This document shows positions 1,288 to 38,335 of a stretch of 40,158 bases of DNA, one piece after another (position 1 is the stretch's first letter; the number at the start of each line of letters is the position of its first letter). The translations under genes and the position numbers were made by a program. The notes below the pieces were generated by a model, which had not been told where the DNA came from, made no database searches, and saw nothing but the letters and a program-made list of their open reading frames with translations. The DNA comes from a virus: positions 1 to 40,158 of the IMG/VR virus record IMGVR_UViG_3300030328_002708. One strand, 5' to 3'.

Positions 1288-1632
1288 CTACTTTTTAGGC
1301 CATTTAAGTTGTTTTTTAGCTCCACTATAAAAATCAACAACTTTTTTTACTCCTTTTTTTATCGCGTTAACTACTGGTTTACCAGCAGATGATGGCATCA
1401 TAGCAATTTCCGGGTTAACAGTTTTCTTTTTTGGCTTTGTAAAAGGATCTACTTTTAAAGGACTTTTTGCCATAAATGGACTTGTAAATCCACCTTTATC
1501 GGATAAACGCTTTATTCTTGCTTCATGAGTTGCAATATCCATATCGGTACCTTTTTTTCCTTTTCTAACTTTTTCTTTAAATCTACTGTCAATTCTATCG
1601 ACTCTAGCTTGTAGTCTTTCTTTTTTTCCCAT
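1288..1632 (-). CDS. Small basic protein with SPF/SPLK motifs, 114 aa
   Basis: This Lys/Arg-rich protein has no signal peptide. The N-terminal 45 residues look like a charged helix. Residues 51-53 are S-P-F and residues 57-60 are S-P-L-K, spaced as in the N-terminus of the 214-aa protein at 35972-36616. The C-terminal part (residues 86-114) is again very basic. The start codon lies one base after the stop of the outer-membrane barrel gene, so translation is probably coupled. The shared motif links this gene to the small-protein cluster 33 kb away, which suggests a common partner in the virion or assembly pathway. Function unknown. Confidence 0.75.
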   Translation of the reverse strand: MGKKERLQARVDRIDSRFKEKVRKGKKGTDMDIATHEARIKRLSDKGGFTSPFMAKSPLKVDPFTKPKKKTVNPEIAMMPSSAGKPVVNAIKKGVKKVVDFYSGAKKQLKWPKK

Positions 1633-25588: not shown

Positions 25589-26797
25589 TTAGTTAAATTT
25601 TCTAGTTTTAATTCTAAGTTTTGTAGAATCTGCACCACTAATTGATTTCACTTTCATTCCACCAACGAAAACTTCACCTGTATTACCTTCTCTTGCTTTC
25701 ACATCAGAAAGATTTCTAGATTTGTTAACCACATCCTTTACAGCATCGGCTTTGCCTTGTTCGTAAAAGTGTGTAGCGATTTTATCTACGTTTGAAGCAG
25801 CATACATTGCTTTATGATAACCGCTCGGGTCTACTACATGTCCATCTGAATCTAGGAACTTCCCTATCAGGTTTTCTATGTTTGATTGGTTCTCAGCAAC
25901 AGCATCGCGATTTTGAATATTATACTTATACTTTTTATCTCCAACAGTAAAATCAAAACCTTTGAAATCATCGTTAAATAATTGTTTAGTACTTTGTTTA
26001 AATTCCGCGTGTAATTGCTCAGCGTGTTCTTGCTGTTTATTGTAACGATTGAAAAATTCCATAGCTTTTTGTTGTTCTTGAGTTACACCAGGACGTAATT
26101 TAATTTCATCATAGTATTTGTTTTTTAACTCATCTAAATAAACTCTAGCTTTATTAACTTCTTCTTTAAAAGCTAATTTTTTCTTTCGTATATCTCTTTC
26201 CTCATCAATATCTTCATCCCATGTAAAATCTTCTAATATAAGATCAACATCTTCTGAATCTAAATGAGGTTTATTTTTTTTATAATATTCTTTTAATAAT
26301 GCTTGTTCATTAATATTGCTATAATCTGCATTTAATCTAACATAATCTTCTACAGTACCTCCAGTATCTTCCATAAAACTAACAAGTTTTTCTACATTTT
26401 CAGGTAATTTTTTACCTAATACTTGCTCGTCTCTTTTCGCTTCTTTAACTTCAGCTTCAATTTTTTGAACTTCTTCTGTTACTTCTTGGATCGGAGAAAA
26501 CCCTTCAGTAGTCTTGTTGGACTCTTGTATAGGTTCTCCCACCTTTGCGCTATCTCCGGATGATTCTTCCACAGATACCTTCTCTGTTTCTCCGATTTGA
26601 ATGGCATTATCTTCTTTTTTTATTTCTACTTTTTTAACATCTGGTTCAACATCTATTAATGGTTCCTTGATGTTAACTGTTTTTATTTCTTGTTCTTTAT
26701 TACCTAATTGTTTAGGTTTTCTAGGTTTAGCTTTAGTTTTTAATTTAAAGTCACCTTCTTGTTTAACCTCTTCGGTTTTGTTTTCTGTCTTTGACAT
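25589..26797 (-). CDS. Scaffold-like protein, 402 aa
   Basis: This highly charged protein is Lys/Glu-rich and predicted disordered over residues 1-130, then helical. Around residues 270-290 it carries F-N-D-D-F-K-G-F-D-F-T-V-G-D-K-K-Y, and the C-terminus is basic (K-L-R-I-K-T-R-K-F-N). A long acidic/charged protein located between portal and major capsid protein, ending in a basic capsid-binding tail, is the classic layout of a scaffolding protein. No protease motif is visible, so a fused protease is unlikely. It starts with M-S-K-T-E-N-K, has the 31-base repeat as leader, and starts 24 bases after the portal stop. Confidence 0.76.
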   Translation of the reverse strand: MSKTENKTEEVKQEGDFKLKTKAKPRKPKQLGNKEQEIKTVNIKEPLIDVEPDVKKVEIKKEDNAIQIGETEKVSVEESSGDSAKVGEPIQESNKTTEGFSPIQEVTEEVQKIEAEVKEAKRDEQVLGKKLPENVEKLVSFMEDTGGTVEDYVRLNADYSNINEQALLKEYYKKNKPHLDSEDVDLILEDFTWDEDIDEERDIRKKKLAFKEEVNKARVYLDELKNKYYDEIKLRPGVTQEQQKAMEFFNRYNKQQEHAEQLHAEFKQSTKQLFNDDFKGFDFTVGDKKYKYNIQNRDAVAENQSNIENLIGKFLDSDGHVVDPSGYHKAMYAASNVDKIATHFYEQGKADAVKDVVNKSRNLSDVKAREGNTGEVFVGGMKVKSISGADSTKLRIKTRKFN

Positions 26798-31437: not shown

Positions 31438-31715
31438 TACTTAGATCTCCCTTCTGCAAAACCTTTAAAATTAGATTTCTTTTTTTCTTCTACTTTAGGT
31501 TTATCTTCTAAAATATTTTTTTCTTCTTCTATACGGTTTAGTATTTCAAAAGCATCAAATATAGCTAATTTTTTTGTAGCTGCAGCATTTTTAAGTCTAT
31601 CCGCGGAAATATCAGGTCCAAAATCTATAATTGGTTCTTTAGCAACTTTGATTAATTCTTTAACTGCTACTCGCCCAGCTTGGATTATATTCTTTTTCGT
31701 TTCCTTTGTACTCAT
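31437..31715 (-). CDS. Small protein before terminase, 92 aa (possible small terminase)
   Basis: The protein is helical and charged. Residues 22-65 (V-A-K-E-P-I-I-D-F-G-P-D, later K-N-A-A-A-T-K-K-L-A-I-F-D-A-F) look like a compact helical domain, followed by a Lys/Glu-rich tail ending R-S-K. A short helical protein directly upstream of the large terminase and overlapping its ATG is where many phages place the small terminase, but no DNA-binding helix-turn-helix is evident, so this is only a candidate. The start at 31715 lies inside the end of the 201-aa gene (56-base overlap). No later Met is available in the frame, and the leader AAATTAAAT before the ATG supports this start. Confidence 0.72.
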   Translation of the reverse strand: MSTKETKKNIIQAGRVAVKELIKVAKEPIIDFGPDISADRLKNAAATKKLAIFDAFEILNRIEEEKNILEDKPKVEEKKKSNFKGFAEGRSK

Positions 31716-32265
31716 ATTTAATTACAATATTATTAGATTTCATACAGTATAAACGCTTGTCTTCAATTAAAAACTGCCATTCTCTATTTGGTTTAAAACC
31801 AATTAAATCACCTTCATTTATACCTAGGTTTTTTAAATATTTATTACCATATTTAATAATTCCTTTTAATTTTTCCTCTTTATCAGTGTTAAGATTATTT
31901 AAACTTTCAATAGGTTGAACAAAACATCTATCATTAAATGAATGCCAATAACCTTCTTGTTTATAAAGATATATTTGATCTAAAGCTACAAAATATAAAT
32001 TATCTTTAAACCATGATCTACTAGCTTTTTTTCTTCCTTTTAAATCATAAAAAGTTCTAAAAACATTTTGGTGTATAACAATAGTATCACCTTTTTTAAT
32101 ATTAGTATTAAAAGCTAAAGGAGTTTCTATAACTTTAGCAAACCTATTAACAAAAGTCCAAGATTCAATTTGTGTGTTAACTATTAATTTTTTTTCTCCT
32201 ATCTTAACTTCATTATTGTATTTGTCACCTATAGGTTCTACAATAAAATCATACAAACTTTTCAT
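31660..32265 (-). CDS. Protein with two GroES-like units, 201 aa
   Basis: Two segments follow a GroES-like strand pattern. In the first, A-K-V-I-E-T-P (43-49) is followed by N-I-K-K-G-D-T-I-V-I-H (55-65) and Y-F-V-A-L-D-Q-I-Y-L-Y (91-101). In the second, G-I-I-K-Y (135-139) is followed by G-I-N-E-G-D-L-I-G-F (148-157), F-L-I-E-D-K-R-L-Y (165-173) and N-N-I-V-I-K (178-183). The '-x-x-G-D-x-V-x-F' turn followed by a final strand is how GroES is built. It may be a co-chaperonin-like or structural barrel protein, but it lacks a clear mobile loop, so it might not bind GroEL. Start overlaps the 74-aa gene by one base. Confidence 0.7.
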   Translation of the reverse strand: MKSLYDFIVEPIGDKYNNEVKIGEKKLIVNTQIESWTFVNRFAKVIETPLAFNTNIKKGDTIVIHQNVFRTFYDLKGRKKASRSWFKDNLYFVALDQIYLYKQEGYWHSFNDRCFVQPIESLNNLNTDKEEKLKGIIKYGNKYLKNLGINEGDLIGFKPNREWQFLIEDKRLYCMKSNNIVIKYEYKGNEKEYNPSWASSS

Positions 32266-33334: not shown

Positions 33335-33793
33335 TTATTTTTGTTTAAATATATTACTTGCTTTTTCTGTTGTTCGTCCACCGAAATAGGCTAAGACGAC
33401 CGACATCATTATTTTCTCGAAAGTATCATTCCATAATTCATTTATATGAAATGGTAGTGTTTCTATACTATCTAAAATTCCAGCCATTGAAAATATAACT
33501 ATACACCACACTAATACTAATGGGCGTACATTCTTACTCAACCAAGAATCAGACATAGAATCCGCTTTCCATCTTGATGTGATAGCTTCTATTTCTTTTG
33601 TTTGTTGTTCGTAAATTAATTGTTGGAGTTTTATTTTGTCTTCAGCGGGTGCATCTGATTTAGCAATAGCCGCTATAGCTTCTTTTGGAGAAGTAACACC
33701 TTGTAATACGTTTCCTAAAGTAGGATTAATTACAGAAGCTGCGCCAAACAATAATTGTCCAACGGTTGTGTCTTTAAATTTCTTTTTACTCAT
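33335..33793 (-). CDS. Holin, 3TM superfamily (GTA-holin type), 152 aa
   Basis: The protein should form the inner-membrane hole that triggers lysis. Characteristic of the 3TM holin family is the middle motif E-I-T-S-R-W-K-A-D-S with R-P (in N-V-R-P-L-V-L) and the C-terminal G-G-R-T-T-E-K. Two membrane segments are clear (V-L-V-W-C-I-V-I-F-S-M-A-G-I and I-M-M-S-V-V-L-A-Y-F-G-G), and a weaker one occurs near residue 15 (L-L-F-G-A-A-S-V). I chose the Met at 33793 because it overlaps the previous stop as TAATG; the frame also allows an earlier Met at 33823, which would overlap the previous gene by 31 bases. The neighbours are a putative metalloprotease and a beta protein; no endolysin lies next to it. 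Confidence 0.8.
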   Translation of the reverse strand: MSKKKFKDTTVGQLLFGAASVINPTLGNVLQGVTSPKEAIAAIAKSDAPAEDKIKLQQLIYEQQTKEIEAITSRWKADSMSDSWLSKNVRPLVLVWCIVIFSMAGILDSIETLPFHINELWNDTFEKIMMSVVLAYFGGRTTEKASNIFKQK

Positions 33794-34101
33794 TATGCGT
33801 TTAAATAAGCTTCTTGTTCCCAAGGTAAAGCAGAATCACCTTCTTTCATTTTAGATCTAGGATATGTTTTTCCTTTCCAATACACGTTTTCATCATCATA
33901 GTTTAAATCACCTCTATTCATTTGATCTATATGCACTTCTTCATGAGCAATTACTTTTGCTTCATCTTGAGGATTTAAATCCTTGTTTACAATGATAGTT
34001 CCATTATTATTAGCTTTACCCATAACACCATCTTCCATATTTACATGATAAACTGGAGCTTTATTTTTTTGAAAAGGAGGAGGTCCCATTTTAAAAGCCA
34101 T
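33793..34101 (-). CDS. Small putative zinc metalloprotease (HEEVH), 102 aa
   Basis: Residues 50-59 (V-I-A-H-E-E-V-H-I-D) carry the HExxH signature, with H53 and H57 as likely zinc ligands and E54 catalytic. A third ligand may be E95 or E97 in the C-terminal P-W-E-Q-E-A-Y. This short arrangement resembles the compact peptidase-like proteins I know from other phages. The N-terminus has P-P-P-F-Q-K-N-K, which is like the SPFQK-type motif of the neighbouring small proteins. It shares a TAATG with the holin gene. Possible roles are cleavage of capsid or scaffold proteins or a part in lysis; the substrate is unknown. Confidence 0.72.
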   Translation of the reverse strand: MAFKMGPPPFQKNKAPVYHVNMEDGVMGKANNNGTIIVNKDLNPQDEAKVIAHEEVHIDQMNRGDLNYDDENVYWKGKTYPRSKMKEGDSALPWEQEAYLNA

Positions 34102-34248: not shown

Positions 34249-34542
34249 TTAAACGCCGCCTATTTCTACGTTATTAAGTGTTTCTGTAACATCTACACTT
34301 ACTCCTCCTGGCTCAGCTACTAAAGCAGCATTAACTGCTTCAGCAAAAGCTATATATCTAGCAGAGCTTTGATCAGAACCTGCAAGTTCTAAAGCAACAG
34401 CCAAAGTTTCATCACCAATCATTGGAAGATATATTAATTCTTCTCCTGGTGGATAAAACGCCGCGCAATTAATACCATTAATATTTATTTTAAAATTTTT
34501 ATATTTTCCTACTCCATTAGGAAAGTTTATAAATTGTCTCAT
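34249..34542 (-). CDS. MRQFI-type protein, short paralog, 97 aa
   Basis: The first residues M-R-Q-F-I-N-F match the start of the 114-aa protein just upstream (M-R-Q-F-I-E-F). Both continue with a beta segment, then a helix with a run of Ala (here F-A-E-A-V-N-A-A-L-V-A, in the paralog F-N-N-A-L-G-A), P-G-G and a Val/Thr-rich end. The proteins are probably tandem duplicates that diverged strongly in the middle. No signal peptide. They may form a decoration lattice or an oligomer. Its stop codon is one base from the mini-protein ATG. Function unknown. Confidence 0.74.
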   Translation of the reverse strand: MRQFINFPNGVGKYKNFKININGINCAAFYPPGEELIYLPMIGDETLAVALELAGSDQSSARYIAFAEAVNAALVAEPGGVSVDVTETLNNVEIGGV

Positions 34543-34562: not shown

Positions 34563-34907
34563 TTAATATACACCTGTGTCTTGAAATTGGTAACCTATAA
34601 TTTCTTGTCCAGCTGGTAATTGTACTTGAATTCTTTTACCTCCAGGCTGAGCCCCTAAAGCATTATTAAAAGCTATAATTGTATCATCAGTTATATTGCC
34701 ATTAAATTGTACTTTATAATATCTAGCCACACCCGGTCCCGCAGCAGATGCTGGAACTGCGTTTGCCCATATACTTATTTTATCAAGATCACCATCTAGA
34801 TCCTCTAGTACACACAGAATGTTATCTATAGGTATATAATAAGTGCCAGCTTCCTCAACATCCATTCCGCCACCACCTATACTTGTAAATTCTATAAATT
34901 GTCTCAT
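34563..34907 (-). CDS. MRQFI-type protein, long paralog, 114 aa
   Basis: The protein opens with M-R-Q-F-I-E-F and has a Gly-rich loop (G-G-G-G-M-D-V-E-E), then beta strands T-Y-Y-I-P-I-D-N-I-L and a second half with the helix T-I-I-A-F-N-N-A-L-G-A followed by P-G-G-K-R-I-Q-V-Q. The latter mirrors the end of the 97-aa paralog. It is soluble and lies between the SPLK-containing 91-aa protein and its shorter copy. A beta-type subunit of the head is possible. Nothing in the sequence indicates catalysis. Confidence 0.74.
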   Translation of the reverse strand: MRQFIEFTSIGGGGMDVEEAGTYYIPIDNILCVLEDLDGDLDKISIWANAVPASAAGPGVARYYKVQFNGNITDDTIIAFNNALGAQPGGKRIQVQLPAGQEIIGYQFQDTGVY

Positions 34908-34936: not shown

Positions 34937-35212
34937 TTATTTTCTTTTATGAGCTCGATTATTTTTTAGATGTCCATCTAAATTTTCTTGAGAATAATCA
35001 GCCATTTCTTCATGAGTAAGTCCACCTGCGTTGTTATGAGCTGGTGAACCATGATGTTTTACAGATCCAAGTTTAGATTGACTAGCATGTTTAGACATCC
35101 ATGATCTTCCTCCACTAGCATCTTTTGCTACTGGATTGTCATGCATTAAATCGTACTTTTCTTGTTTTGTGGATTCGTAACCCTTGTTTTGATTTTTTAA
35201 AGGTGAATTCAT
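34937..35212 (-). CDS. SP-motif protein, short paralog, 91 aa
   Basis: This is a polar, His/Lys/Ser-rich, probably disordered protein. It starts M-N-S-P-L-K and contains K-Q-E-K-Y-D-L-M-H-D-N-P-V-A-K, S-W-M-S-K-H and H-H-G-S-P-A-H (residues 53-59). The middle two segments are shared almost letter by letter with the 107-aa protein upstream, so the genes are tandem paralogs. The H-H-G-S-P-A-H piece is also present in the 128-aa protein. No signal peptide. The recurring motif suggests a shared binding partner, perhaps the capsid, scaffold or GroEL. Function unknown. Confidence 0.74.
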   Translation of the reverse strand: MNSPLKNQNKGYESTKQEKYDLMHDNPVAKDASGGRSWMSKHASQSKLGSVKHHGSPAHNNAGGLTHEEMADYSQENLDGHLKNNRAHKRK

Positions 35213-35228
35213 TGTTTAGTTATTTTTG

Positions 35229-35552
35229 TTATTTATACGCTTTTACTTGTTGACCATCCGGACTAATAGTCACCTCTACTTCATTACTTTCTACTTCTGG
35301 TAATTCACGTAATTTAGATGATTTTTCGGCTGGATTAGCTTTCATAATCCCAGGAGTGTTTTGTAAATGTTCAGTATATCTTGTTGCATCTATTTCTTCT
35401 TTCTTGTTTGACTCAGAGGGAGGAACTACGTGTAAAGGTGATCCACCTAATCTCGATTGTTGAGAATGCTTAGACATCCAAGACCCACTCGCGTGTTTAG
35501 CTACTGGATTATCATGAAGTAAGTTGTATTTTTCTTGTTTGTTTGATTCCAT
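35229..35552 (-). CDS. SP-motif protein, long paralog, 107 aa
   Basis: The N-terminal half (E-S-N-K-Q-E-K-Y-N-L-L-H-D-N-P-V-A-K, S-W-M-S-K-H, R-L-G-G-S-P-L-H at 34-41) is homologous to the 91-aa protein downstream. The C-terminal half is different, acidic then beta-like (V-E-V-T-I-S-P-D-G-Q-Q-V-K). Because the paralogs share only the N-terminal part, that part is likely the functional unit and the C-terminus a replaceable addition. There is no signal peptide and no Cys. It is separated from its paralog by 16 bases. Confidence 0.74.
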   Translation of the reverse strand: MESNKQEKYNLLHDNPVAKHASGSWMSKHSQQSRLGGSPLHVVPPSESNKKEEIDATRYTEHLQNTPGIMKANPAEKSSKLRELPEVESNEVEVTISPDGQQVKAYK

Positions 35553-35574
35553 TTTTTATATTTTTAAATTTTTA

Positions 35575-35961
35575 TTATGCAGGCACACATTCTCCATTAA
35601 CTTTAATAAATCCAGGTTTACATCTCAATTTTTTTACCATCATTGCTTTCTTTCCTTTTTTGCTTTCTGGAGATTTTGATGGTGGTTTTTTCTCTGTAGC
35701 GTGCGCTGGAGAACCATGATGTTCCTTATCATATTTCATATCACCTGCTAATTTAGATATGTGTTTTTCATCAGCAGTCATGTTTTCATCACTATGACCA
35801 TGTTTATTATCATAGTCAATATCTCTTTTAAGATAATCTATATGCGCAGCATCATCTTTTACCGCATCATCATAATTTTTGCTTGTAACTTTTGTGTGAG
35901 CGTGGTCTCTTGACCATTTTGCGTTACCGGTATATTCGCCCCAATGTCCTTTATGTCCCAT
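35575..35961 (-). CDS. His-rich SP-motif protein, 128 aa
   Basis: The protein is rich in His, Lys and Asp (N-terminal G-H-K-G-H-W-G-E-Y, later H-G-H-S-D-E-N). It contains H-H-G-S-P-A-H (81-87), as in the 91-aa protein, and then a Pro/Ser/Lys-rich linker with K-S-P-E-S-K. The C-terminus has L-R-C-K-P-G-F-I-K-V and E-C-V-P-A with two Cys, a small disulfide-like loop or metal site. The repeated pattern D-x-x-H-I-x-Y-x-K-x-D is visible in the middle. The function is unknown. Metal binding by the His clusters is possible. Confidence 0.72.
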   Translation of the reverse strand: MGHKGHWGEYTGNAKWSRDHAHTKVTSKNYDDAVKDDAAHIDYLKRDIDYDNKHGHSDENMTADEKHISKLAGDMKYDKEHHGSPAHATEKKPPSKSPESKKGKKAMMVKKLRCKPGFIKVNGECVPA

Positions 35962-35971
35962 TTTTATTTAT

Positions 35972-36616
35972 TTATGTAAGTCCTAATGACTCTTTTTTAT
36001 TTGCTTTTTGAACAGCTGTAGCATTAGCTCCTTCACCTGTTAACCAAGCGTCATATGTTTCTTGGTTTTTCTTTTTACTTTCAACAGCTTCATTTGCAGT
36101 TGTTAAATTACTTTTAACATTTTCACTTCTATCGTCAAATCTTTTTAATCTATCAGCGCTCCAATTATCTTTGTTATTTTCTCTTCTTTTTGATCTTCTC
36201 TTATCTCTTTTTGCTAAATGTTTAGCTCTAGCTTCTGGAGTACTTCTTTTATCTATAATAGATTGAGCAAGTTTACCAAATGAATCAAAAACCCTTGTCC
36301 ACATATGCGCTGTAGGTGGATTAGAATCTACCATATCACTCGCTTCTCTATAACCATGCAGAGGAGAACTCATTTCTGCTGCAGAATTTCTAGCAGCATC
36401 TTCGTCTTCTCTTACTTGATAAGCTCCTTCTTCTGTTCTAGCATTACTGTGAGCTGCTTCAGCTTTAGTTTTAGCTTCATAAAGATCAGCATGTTCTTCA
36501 TAAAAATCTCCTGGACCGTCCCAATTTCTTTTTGCTCTATTTATTTGTCTTTGGATTTTTCTATGACCTTTTAATGGACTTTTGCTATTAAAACTTTTTT
36601 GAAATGGTGAACTCAT
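35972..36616 (-). CDS. Basic helical SP-motif protein, 214 aa
   Basis: This protein begins M-S-S-P-F-Q-K and has S-P-L-K at residues 13-16, then S-P-L-H at 84-87, so it carries three copies of the motif. It is strongly basic between 120 and 165 (K-R-D-K-R-R-S-K-R-R) and helical, which would suit binding to DNA or to an acidic scaffold. The tandem arrangement SPF followed by SPLK about 9 residues later is the same as in the 114-aa protein at 1288-1632. It is separated by two bases from the 82-aa gene. Function unknown. Confidence 0.73.
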   Translation of the reverse strand: MSSPFQKSFNSKSPLKGHRKIQRQINRAKRNWDGPGDFYEEHADLYEAKTKAEAAHSNARTEEGAYQVREDEDAARNSAAEMSSPLHGYREASDMVDSNPPTAHMWTRVFDSFGKLAQSIIDKRSTPEARAKHLAKRDKRRSKRRENNKDNWSADRLKRFDDRSENVKSNLTTANEAVESKKKNQETYDAWLTGEGANATAVQKANKKESLGLT

Positions 36617-36618
36617 AA

Positions 36619-36867
36619 TTACTTGTCTTTACCAAAATCTGCTGGTGCACAAGATTTACTACCTGTGTTGAAAGCAAATGTTAATTTATCTGTTAACCCG
36701 TTTGTTGCTCTGTTTTTCCATGCTGATCTTAATTTTCCACAAGGAATATCTTCTCCTTCTGGAACATTTAGTGCTCTATGTAAACCACCTTTATCAAAAC
36801 CTGGTTTTTCAGTTACTCCTTGTATCCAATTTTTATTAAATGGACTATTATGTTGTATATATCCCAT
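36619..36867 (-). CDS. Small SP-motif protein, 82 aa
   Basis: I start at the ATG 36867-36865 because it gives M-G-Y-I-Q-H-N-S-P-F-N-K, with the S-P-F motif at residues 8-10, close to the N-terminus as in its neighbours, and a four-base gap to the previous stop. An earlier in-frame Met at 36894 would overlap the upstream gene by 23 bases. The rest contains G-L-H-R-A-L-N-V-P-E-G-E-D-I-P, a helix-capping pattern that I know from small phage virion proteins, and a C-terminal K-S-C-A-P. It is probably a minor virion component. Function unknown. Confidence 0.7.
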   Translation of the reverse strand: MGYIQHNSPFNKNWIQGVTEKPGFDKGGLHRALNVPEGEDIPCGKLRSAWKNRATNGLTDKLTFAFNTGSKSCAPADFGKDK

Positions 36868-36871
36868 AGTA

Positions 36872-37093
36872 TTATTTATTATATACTTTAGCACATTCAG
36901 TTATAGGCATTCCTTTATAAGATAATGGCGCTTGCAAAATCTTCATACCTGTTATACCAGTACTAGATCCACTTCCATGAGGTCTTCCGACTTGGTCTAG
37001 AGGACCATCCCATATATGAGATTCTCCAACTATACCAACTTTAGTTCCTGGCTTTAATTTTTCCATTGCTGGATCATATTTTTTATTATGCAT
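36872..37093 (-). CDS. Hypothetical protein, 73 aa
   Basis: The protein has Gly/Pro-rich beta-type segments: K-P-G-T-K-V-G-I-V-G-E-S-H-I-W-D near residues 14-29, then G-R-P-H-G-S-G-S-S-T and A-P-L-S-Y-K-G-M-P. The A-P-L-S near 55 is only a weak relative of the S-P-L-K motif. One Cys. There is no signal peptide. It lies two bases after the 180-aa gene and four bases before the 82-aa gene within the SP-motif cluster. Not recognised. Confidence 0.68.
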   Translation of the reverse strand: MHNKKYDPAMEKLKPGTKVGIVGESHIWDGPLDQVGRPHGSGSSTGITGMKILQAPLSYKGMPITECAKVYNK

Positions 37094-37095
37094 AA

Positions 37096-37638
37096 TTATT
37101 GCTTTTTATTTGTTATATATACTGAATTTTTATCAGTAGTAAACTTGTTTTTTCTATGAGCTTCCTCTGCTGCTTCTTTTGTATACTGAGACCCAGGTGC
37201 TGAATTAGCTTTATTATATAATTCCCAATCAGTACCACCCGCTCCATCATCATAACCTGGAACATCTACTGGATCAACTTTTTCGTAAGCTGATAATTTT
37301 GCTGGTTTTTCATCTTCATTTTTTACTGGAGATAAATGTGTTTTTAAAGCATATATTCCTGAAGATCCTAAACTAGCTTGTCTACCAGTTACATCTCCAA
37401 ACATACCTTGCATTGCGCTCATAGCGGCTGGATCAAATTGAGACCCCGCATCAACTATACTTGCAGGTCTTGAACCTAGTCCAACTTTACCGCCAACTAA
37501 ACCTCCTACACCCGAGTGTCTATCTCCATTACCGCCACCGCTACCAAATATACCACCTATTCTGTTCATTAAATGATTAGTAGCTGCAGCTGAGCCTATT
37601 AAGCCAGCAAATTTTACTGGTGATTTTTTATTTTTCAT
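37096..37638 (-). CDS. Gly-rich SP-motif protein, 180 aa
   Basis: The N-terminus is M-K-N-K-K-S-P-V-K with the motif at residues 6-9, followed by a Gly/Ser-rich, flexible part up to about 95. A second S-P-V-K at 103-106 lies in H-L-S-P-V-K-N-E-D, and the C-terminal part is charged. There is no signal peptide, although residues 10-20 (F-A-G-L-I-G-S-A-A-A) are mildly hydrophobic. Its ATG overlaps the upstream winged-helix-like gene by four bases. It looks like a disordered adapter with two docking motifs. Function unknown. Confidence 0.72.
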   Translation of the reverse strand: MKNKKSPVKFAGLIGSAAATNHLMNRIGGIFGSGGGNGDRHSGVGGLVGGKVGLGSRPASIVDAGSQFDPAAMSAMQGMFGDVTGRQASLGSSGIYALKTHLSPVKNEDEKPAKLSAYEKVDPVDVPGYDDGAGGTDWELYNKANSAPGSQYTKEAAEEAHRKNKFTTDKNSVYITNKKQ

Positions 37639-38075
37639 CTTGTTTTATCTTGATTAAGGTTATAAATAGCTTTTGTCATTACTTTGTCCATATAAGAAGT
37701 ACCATTAATTATTTTATTTCTACTTCCAATATTTATATCTTCATGACCAAGCATTATTCTATATATACGCTGTATTAATTGTTTACCTTTAAATGAAACT
37801 TTATATATATTATATTTTTGAGTTGTTCTGTTCCTATGACGCCAAACAACTATCCAATCATTTTGTATTAATTTATTCCACCTTCTATTGTTCCAACTAT
37901 AAGCGTAAGTTCCTGCTTGAAAGTCTTTTATTGTAAATAAATCAATACAATCAAGATAGATTAAAAGCTCTAGTTCACTATCAGTTAAATCATTATTTTT
38001 ACAAGCCCATTTACGTATAACTCTATAATGCTTCATTAATCTTAGATCTTTAATATCACTAGCGCTTAGTTTCAT
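37635..38075 (-). CDS. Winged-helix-like DNA-binding protein, 146 aa
   Basis: The order helix (L-T-D-S-E-L-E-L-L-I-Y-L), helix (F-Q-A-G-T-Y-A-Y-S-W), W-N-K-L-I-Q-N-D-W-I then a wing (R-N-R-T-T-Q-K-Y-N-I-Y-K-V-S) and helix (K-G-K-Q-L-I-Q-R-I-Y) is the layout of MarR-type winged-helix proteins. It is basic, as expected for DNA binding. It could regulate late transcription or bind packaged DNA. It overlaps the groES-like gene by four bases (ATGA), so it is produced with the chaperonins, and also overlaps the next gene by four bases. No ligand site is visible. Confidence 0.66.
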   Translation of the reverse strand: MKLSASDIKDLRLMKHYRVIRKWACKNNDLTDSELELLIYLDCIDLFTIKDFQAGTYAYSWNNRRWNKLIQNDWIVVWRHRNRTTQKYNIYKVSFKGKQLIQRIYRIMLGHEDINIGSRNKIINGTSYMDKVMTKAIYNLNQDKTR

Positions 38076-38335
38076 AACACTACTACAATATCTTGACCTT
38101 TTATAACTCTATAAGTTTTTTTATCTATTTCAATTTTATGACCAGCGTGTCTATCAAAATATATTATATCATTTATTTTAATACCCACTATTTCCTCTCC
38201 AACTGATATAACTTTTGCTTCGACATATCTAACATCTTCACGTTGGTTTTCTGCAAGAAGTAAACCACCTTTGGTCTTAGTAGTTCCTTCTTTTTTTATA
38301 TCAATTATTAAATTATTACCTACTGCTTTCATCAA
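38072..38335 (-). CDS. groES: Co-chaperonin GroES-like protein, 87 aa
   Basis: The small ring cap that closes the chaperonin chamber. After the first strand (N-N-L-I-I-D-I), the mobile loop region T-K-G-G-L-L-L (residues 21-27) is like the GGIVL loop of GroES. It then follows the typical G-D/N turn (I-K-I-N-D-I-I-Y-F) and ends with the final strand G-Q-D-I-V-V-V-L. At 87 aa it is slightly shorter than bacterial GroES (about 97). It overlaps the end of groEL by 20 bases. In bacteria groES usually precedes groEL; here it follows. It likely assists folding of a phage protein such as the capsid or terminase. Confidence 0.88.
   Translation of the reverse strand: MMKAVGNNLIIDIKKEGTTKTKGGLLLAENQREDVRYVEAKVISVGEEIVGIKINDIIYFDRHAGHKIEIDKKTYRVIKGQDIVVVL

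Follow-up and report, generated by a model that had tools for sequence, protein, structure and literature searches.

Small late proteins in a virus record of 40,158 bases (IMG/VR record IMGVR_UViG_3300030328_002708; the whole stretch is called the window below) share a short S-P motif, and this observation is real and far beyond chance. The motif is enriched in these proteins, belongs in its fullest form to a portable 15-residue N-terminal tag that is selected at the protein level, and is restricted to one phage clade, in sister lineages of which another tag is present on a small HExxH protease. These properties suggest that the tag is a previously undescribed address label, most likely for loading into the head. 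In the mechanism that we propose, the SP motif would be the core of a portable docking tag, and short tags of this kind, usually N-terminal, would mark small, mostly basic, fast-changing late proteins and the small HExxH protease. By binding an inner component of the assembling head, such as the major capsid protein (MCP), scaffold or portal, the tag would bring unrelated proteins into the prohead as cargo, as T4 capsid targeting sequences (CTS) do, and the protease would enter as co-cargo. We assign this reading as a whole a probability of roughly one half. That the tag is a docking signal of some kind is very probable; a prohead or virion destination stands at even odds, and an inner head component is our best guess for the partner.

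Enrichment of the SP motif in small late proteins

The late genes of the window lie on the minus strand. The initial annotation had listed six neighbouring late proteins with the motif S-P-[LFVA]-[KH] and a seventh, distant protein with an SPF...SPLK pair. All six exist on the minus strand and five fit the strict pattern, the 82-aa protein having SPFN instead; the pair in the distant protein is present as described (Table 1). The strict pattern SP[LFVA][KH], applied to the window only, occurs nine times in the small late proteins and the distant 114-aa protein (1,144 aa together), where per-protein shuffling predicts 0.13 occurrences, and none of 2,000 shuffles reaches nine. The remaining 11,873 aa of the window contain no occurrence (0.48 expected).

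For relatives the pattern was widened slightly ([KRHQ], [KRHQN]) after they had been viewed, and loci were chosen partly by the protease or the tag pattern, so that counts of co-occurrence are conditioned on that choice. The 577 non-redundant small open reading frames (ORFs) upstream of the protease contain 287 motifs, compared with 16.5 +/- 4.1 expected; at least one is present in 134 of 149 loci, and 115 of the 287 motifs fall within the first 20 residues (42.5 expected). The order of residues matters as well. In a set of 601 non-redundant ORFs around protease loci, the small ORFs contain SP[LFVAM][KRHQ] 100 times, [KRHQ]SP[LFVAM], which has the same core, 65 times, and [LFVAM][KRHQ]SP, an order in partial overlap with the tag, 25 times; other orders occur 1-13 times each. 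When all tripeptides in the relatives' cluster are ranked without bias, SPL comes first (86 versus 11.8) and SPF second (50 versus 7.8).

Counted by family, the motif reaches 16-46 times its expectation in cluster families. Nearly all structural and replication families are at, near or below chance, and the slight excess in a few others comes from small counts, which bears out the expectation that the motif is rarer outside late proteins. Loci anchored on the MCP show no clear motif signal because they mostly lack the cluster. The motif is also kept in orthologs of relatives. Chance occurrence in Lys/Ser/Pro-rich protein, which the initial annotation had named as the way in which the idea could fail, is excluded by the shuffles and the residue-order permutations.

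A portable 15-residue tag under selection

Describing the motif as a short linear S-P-x-x element captured only part of it, for SPFQKSFNSKSPLK is one bipartite N-terminal tag of 15 residues, MSSPFQKxFSAKSPL in its general form. Neighbouring genes of relatives are alike in these first 15 residues only, and 20 tagged proteins with non-redundant bodies fall into 10 BLASTP families once the tag is removed. We searched 2.9 million viral contigs for a DNA pattern in which residues 1-7 only were fixed (MSSPFQ[KQ]). Among the 91 distinct ORFs retrieved, 78 continue with K[STNC]P in the second half of the tag, the K and P invariably being K12 and P14, and F9 is present in 76 of these 78; F9, K12 and P14 all lie outside the search pattern. 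The 78 proteins represent at least 20 body families without detectable similarity (split by BLASTP at E<=1e-3, at which remote homology between short sequences may be missed). A short N-terminal peptide is therefore found on several small proteins with unrelated mature parts. Nearly all MSSPFQ ORFs belong to this phage clade and reside beside the protease, holin, terminase, GroEL or a 3278-aa gene, and shorter forms (GSPLH, KSPLK) are found elsewhere in the chain.

Some tagged bodies, including DUF6321 and a KACxxGKEKIIRFGQ family, are found untagged in other marine phages. One member of the latter family (L195:125-412) has an extra N-terminal NGSPFLK that its homologues in elemoF and MW202828 lack. 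Such pairs are what tag gain by existing proteins would look like. Other tagged bodies contain a KVWPSAYASG or RWFKEDW stretch. In four loci (L185, L184, L191 and L217) a further module, SKHSIAAGSP[VL]H, accompanied in some cases by GGSGKSPLYQD, and the SPF tag are combined in varied ways.

The 214-aa protein of the window carries the full tag. In an alignment of its family (eight members), most of the 20 invariant columns belong to the tag or to S84-P85-L86; a viral scan with this protein as query found no relatives. Its AlphaFold2 model is mostly helical (mean predicted local distance difference test score, pLDDT, 73.5), with a short helix predicted at modest confidence for residues 4-11, in the first half of the tag (pLDDT of the tag ~66). 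The cluster proteins had been thought largely unrelated to one another and probably disordered. The helical model leaves disorder only partly right, and the 91-aa and 107-aa proteins, as paralogues with 48% identity, are not independent.

Selection on the tag was examined by comparing one tag per body family. Tag codons 8-15 have proportions of synonymous (pS) and nonsynonymous (pN) differences of 0.75 and 0.25; for codons 9 and 12-15 the values across families are 0.78 and 0.13, a pN/pS ratio of 0.17, while the protein bodies give pS 0.63 and pN 0.70, a ratio of 1.13. This difference indicates that the peptide itself is under selection. The tag might instead have no function, being a 5' gene end that recombination copies between neighbours, or a product of Lys/Ser/Pro-rich chance. 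Its first six codons (ATG AGT TCA CCA TTT CAA) are indeed nearly invariant as DNA, so copying of gene starts probably does spread the tag; the 30 bases upstream have 48% identity, compared with 42% expected by composition. However, later residues are fixed where synonymous sites vary, Ser13 is encoded by both TCN and AGY codons, and chance fails against the shuffles and permutations described above. A tag without function is thus disfavoured, and is the least probable of the alternatives.

A role in DNA binding is also very improbable. Histone H1 SPKK repeats bind the minor groove, and S-P-x-K repeats could in the same manner condense packaged DNA; the tagged proteins are mostly basic (median pI 8.8), and lysine often follows SPL or SPF. 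However, position 3 of the motif is hydrophobic (L 5.0 times and F 5.8 times expectation), position 4 accepts N, Q and H as well as K, and F9 and the order of the 15 residues are fixed, which points to protein docking.

The MSSPFQ tag is not the only one. Proteins starting with MAFKMKG are common in marine phage metagenomes, and this was part of the reason for a scan with MAFKMKGxxP, which retrieved sister lineages of the same clade (clade markers in 109 of 120 loci). The 117 ORFs with this start form 54 body families by BLASTP, a generous count with many singletons. SP[LAVMIF] at residues 12-27 is present in 22 of the 97 members that are not proteases (0.8 expected). A literature search gave no count for MAFKMKG among the matches listed, and nothing relevant was found on SPLK with phage or on DUF6321.

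Judged by MCP, the nearest named relatives of the window are uncultured spring phage MW202828, Maribacter phage Panino and Flavobacterium elemo phages, with Cellulophaga phi38:1 (Pervagoviridae) more distant; close relatives are encoded in many IMG/VR contigs. Where related capsid genes occur in contigs of metagenome-assembled genomes (MAGs), the label is mostly Bacteroidetes or Flavobacteriaceae, and marine Bacteroidetes are therefore probably the hosts of the tagged clade. Two capsid-gene matches (L244 and L254) come from a 1.05-Mb MAG chromosome that is recorded as Candidatus Aenigmatarchaeota archaeon (CP070801.1), for which a chimeric assembly or a mislabelled record seems likely. Throughout, ORF calling was mechanical and the contigs are mostly fragments.

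The HExxH protease and other genes around the cluster

At least 20 of the 117 MAFKMKG ORFs are the HExxH protease. The homologue in the window resembles this sister-lineage tag at its N-terminus (Table 1), and the simplest reading is therefore that the protease is itself a tagged protein. HExxH is kept in 214 of 214 distinct homologues, of which 163 have MAFK near the N-terminus, and one sublineage has an extra SSPIKHCWSS module fused in front. The protease is present in 77 of 120 and 46 of 66 partial loci. Its co-distribution with the tag at the clade level is common to several other genes and does not prove a link. A conserved active-site motif and adjacency to head genes across the clade, as expected of a zincin-type prohead protease, are both found.

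The initial annotation had suggested a docking or processing signal. The enrichment, portability, purifying selection and restriction to a single clade all fit this suggestion, which is thereby partly supported. If the signal were one for processing, the adjoining HExxH protease would recognise the SP motif and remove the tag or cut there, as prohead proteases do. The protease gene adjoins the cluster, its clade distribution is like that of the motif and HExxH is kept in all 214 homologues; furthermore, the targeting sequences of T4 serve for docking and for cleavage alike (PMC9026906). However, the protease carries a tag itself, many motif copies lie within the chain or close to its C-terminus, positions at which cleavage would split the protein, and four records, all fragments, keep the protease with no more than three small-ORF motifs (G010, G012, G014 and G020). 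Processing is thus unlikely to be the main explanation, and the protease, tagged as it is in sister lineages, is unlikely to be the sole tag reader. Processing and docking can nonetheless hold together. A holin gene (phrog_3427, 33335-33823) overlaps the end of the protease gene, so the protease may have a role in lysis.

The tag might also be read by host chaperone, membrane, secretion or degradation machinery instead of the phage head. Untagged relatives share the head proteins, so a host factor specific to the clade is conceivable, and the predicted helix over the first half of the tag would suit such a signal. Against this stand the placement of the genes among late genes around holin, terminase and GroEL, the internal motif copies and the lack of a hydrophobic segment; we know of no host signal of this form. 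A host-directed signal is improbable.

Table 1. Tagged and motif-bearing proteins of the window, with the putative scaffold and the protease.
Feature	Coordinates	Strand	Remarks
180-aa protein	37096..37638	-	N-terminal KKSPVKF; SPVK6, SPVK103; family motif ratio 36x, only 3 members
82-aa protein	36619..36894, ATG at 36867	-	N-terminal SPFN, a loose form of the motif
214-aa protein	35972..36616	-	full bipartite N-terminal tag MSSPFQKSFNSKSPLK; SPFQ3, SPLK13; third copy SPLH84
Tag, residues 1-15 of 214-aa protein	36572..36616	-	common to at least 20 body families in viral contigs
128-aa protein (MGHKGHWGEYTGNAKW family)	35575..35961	-	HHGSPAH, SPAH84; family ratio 46x; motif in 23 of 37 members
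107-aa protein	35229..35552	-	WMSKH...GGSPLH, SPLH38; family ratio 16x; paralogue of 91-aa protein
91-aa protein	34937..35212	-	N-terminal SPLK3; HHGSPAH, SPAH56; family ratio 16x
102-aa HExxH metalloprotease-like protein	33793..34101	-	N-terminus MAFKMGPPPFQKN (34063-34101) resembles sister-lineage tag MAFKMKGxP
402-aa putative scaffold	25589..26797	-	between portal and MCP; GFSPIQEV island (26480-26503) at edge of predicted disordered N-terminal arm
114-aa basic protein	1288..1632	-	downstream of 3278-aa gene; FTSPFMAKSPLK (1453-1482); SPFM51, SPLK57

Homologues of the 91-aa protein occur in 23 viral contigs, and none were found for the 82-aa protein. A motif-free 73-aa protein (36872-37093) lies inside the cluster and overlaps its neighbour; it is kept in most tagged genomes and is absent from the four untagged relatives examined. 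Two adjacent small proteins (34249-34542 and 34563-34907) both start with MRQFI[NE]F, lack the SP motif and are apparently paralogues. Relatives have a second tagged cluster at the position of the 114-aa protein. In three of them (L261, L286 and L331) this second cluster of small proteins, 3' of the 3278-aa gene at the opposite end of the late genes, has as many as three MSSPFQ proteins alongside other small basic proteins with SP tags. The window also encodes, in addition to the GroES beside GroEL (38072-38335), a second, 201-aa GroES-like protein (phrog_13932, 31660-32265) that adjoins the terminase and is kept even in untagged relatives.

Candidate partners and known targeting systems

Capsid or scaffold, among the partners named initially, is our best guess for what the tag would dock on. 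GroEL, also named, is an unlikely tag reader, since the untagged elemoF, Panino and MW202828 also have a GroEL homologue. Within the head, the 402-aa family is a clear exception among non-cluster families, with the motif 9 times over shuffle. Its model has a disordered arm (residues 1-107, pLDDT <50) that ends in GFSPIQEV and is followed by a helical core, and across 77 sequences the SPI[QK] island stands out from its local surroundings. A fold search with this model matched only uncharacterised viral proteins, one of them from Cellulophaga phage phi18:3. Two other elements were considered and rejected. The N-terminal arm of the MCP has a conserved PSQxQ, yet the MCP family shows no more motifs than chance predicts; at the portal N-terminus (NSPFPSQ), SPF is found in the nearest relatives only and is elsewhere mostly SAF or SSF.

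Several points weigh against loading into the head. The 402-aa protein is a putative scaffold by its position and its predicted shape only. Its motif differs from the cargo motif in being followed by E[IV], and could be coincidental and passed down within a single family. The MCP, portal and scaffold families are common to untagged relatives, so the partner site would have to be clade-specific. A single receptor is less likely when there are at least two types of tag, remote homology between bodies may have been missed, and we found no virion proteome or binding data for any tagged phage. Cultured relatives do not fill this gap. The Flavobacterium elemo phages and phi38:1 resemble the window in MCP (35-42% identity) and head-gene order, but neither an SP-motif excess nor an HExxH protease was found in phi38:1, elemoF or Panino. 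tblastn with the 91-, 128- and 131-aa proteins as queries matched no cultured phage with the tag. Two small basic proteins of phi38:1, gp69 and gp80, are annotated as structural; we dropped them as virion evidence, gp80 homologues being seen in untagged form only.

If head loading is correct, the tag would flag, by sequence alone, which of the many uncharacterised small proteins of a large group of uncultured marine phages assemble together and are perhaps injected into the host. It would also add a separate example of T4-like targeting, might serve as a tool to load proteins into heads, and would offer a way into the function of widespread domains of marine phages, such as DUF6321, that gain it here. 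More tentatively, the tags could form a modular cargo-sorting code, not described before, in which interchangeable tags (MSSPFQKxFSAKSPL, MAFKMKGxP...xSPxK and PFxSKH...GSPLH) send dozens of unrelated small proteins and a zinc-type protease to one head compartment across a large clade of marine phages, new proteins joining the cargo by gaining a tag.

Short peptides that are common to unrelated cargo are also known from encapsulins, in which cargo-loading peptides dock on an HK97-fold shell; these are bacterial nanocompartments, however, and not phage heads. In phage SPN3US, propeptides have been proposed to direct ejection proteins, together with the protease, into the prohead (PMC7411985), but those on its head proteins are ~110-130 residues long, compared with 15 for the tag described here. 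The proposed mechanism is most like that of the T4 CTS, a likeness that we claim for mechanism and not for membership. In T4, divergent basic internal proteins have N-terminal propeptides of 10-19 residues that direct them to the prohead core and are later removed by cleavage (PMC9026906; PMC7411985), and those of IPII and IPIII are identical (PMC9026906). A short N-terminal peptide on small, basic, divergent proteins (IPI, IPII, IPIII and Alt in T4) is common to both systems, and in T4 a protease is part of the same assembly (PMC9026906; PMC7411985). The T4 protease is the serine-type gp21, whereas the candidate here is the HExxH protein beside the cluster, and the motif of the window and its relatives is also found inside chains and on far more bodies.

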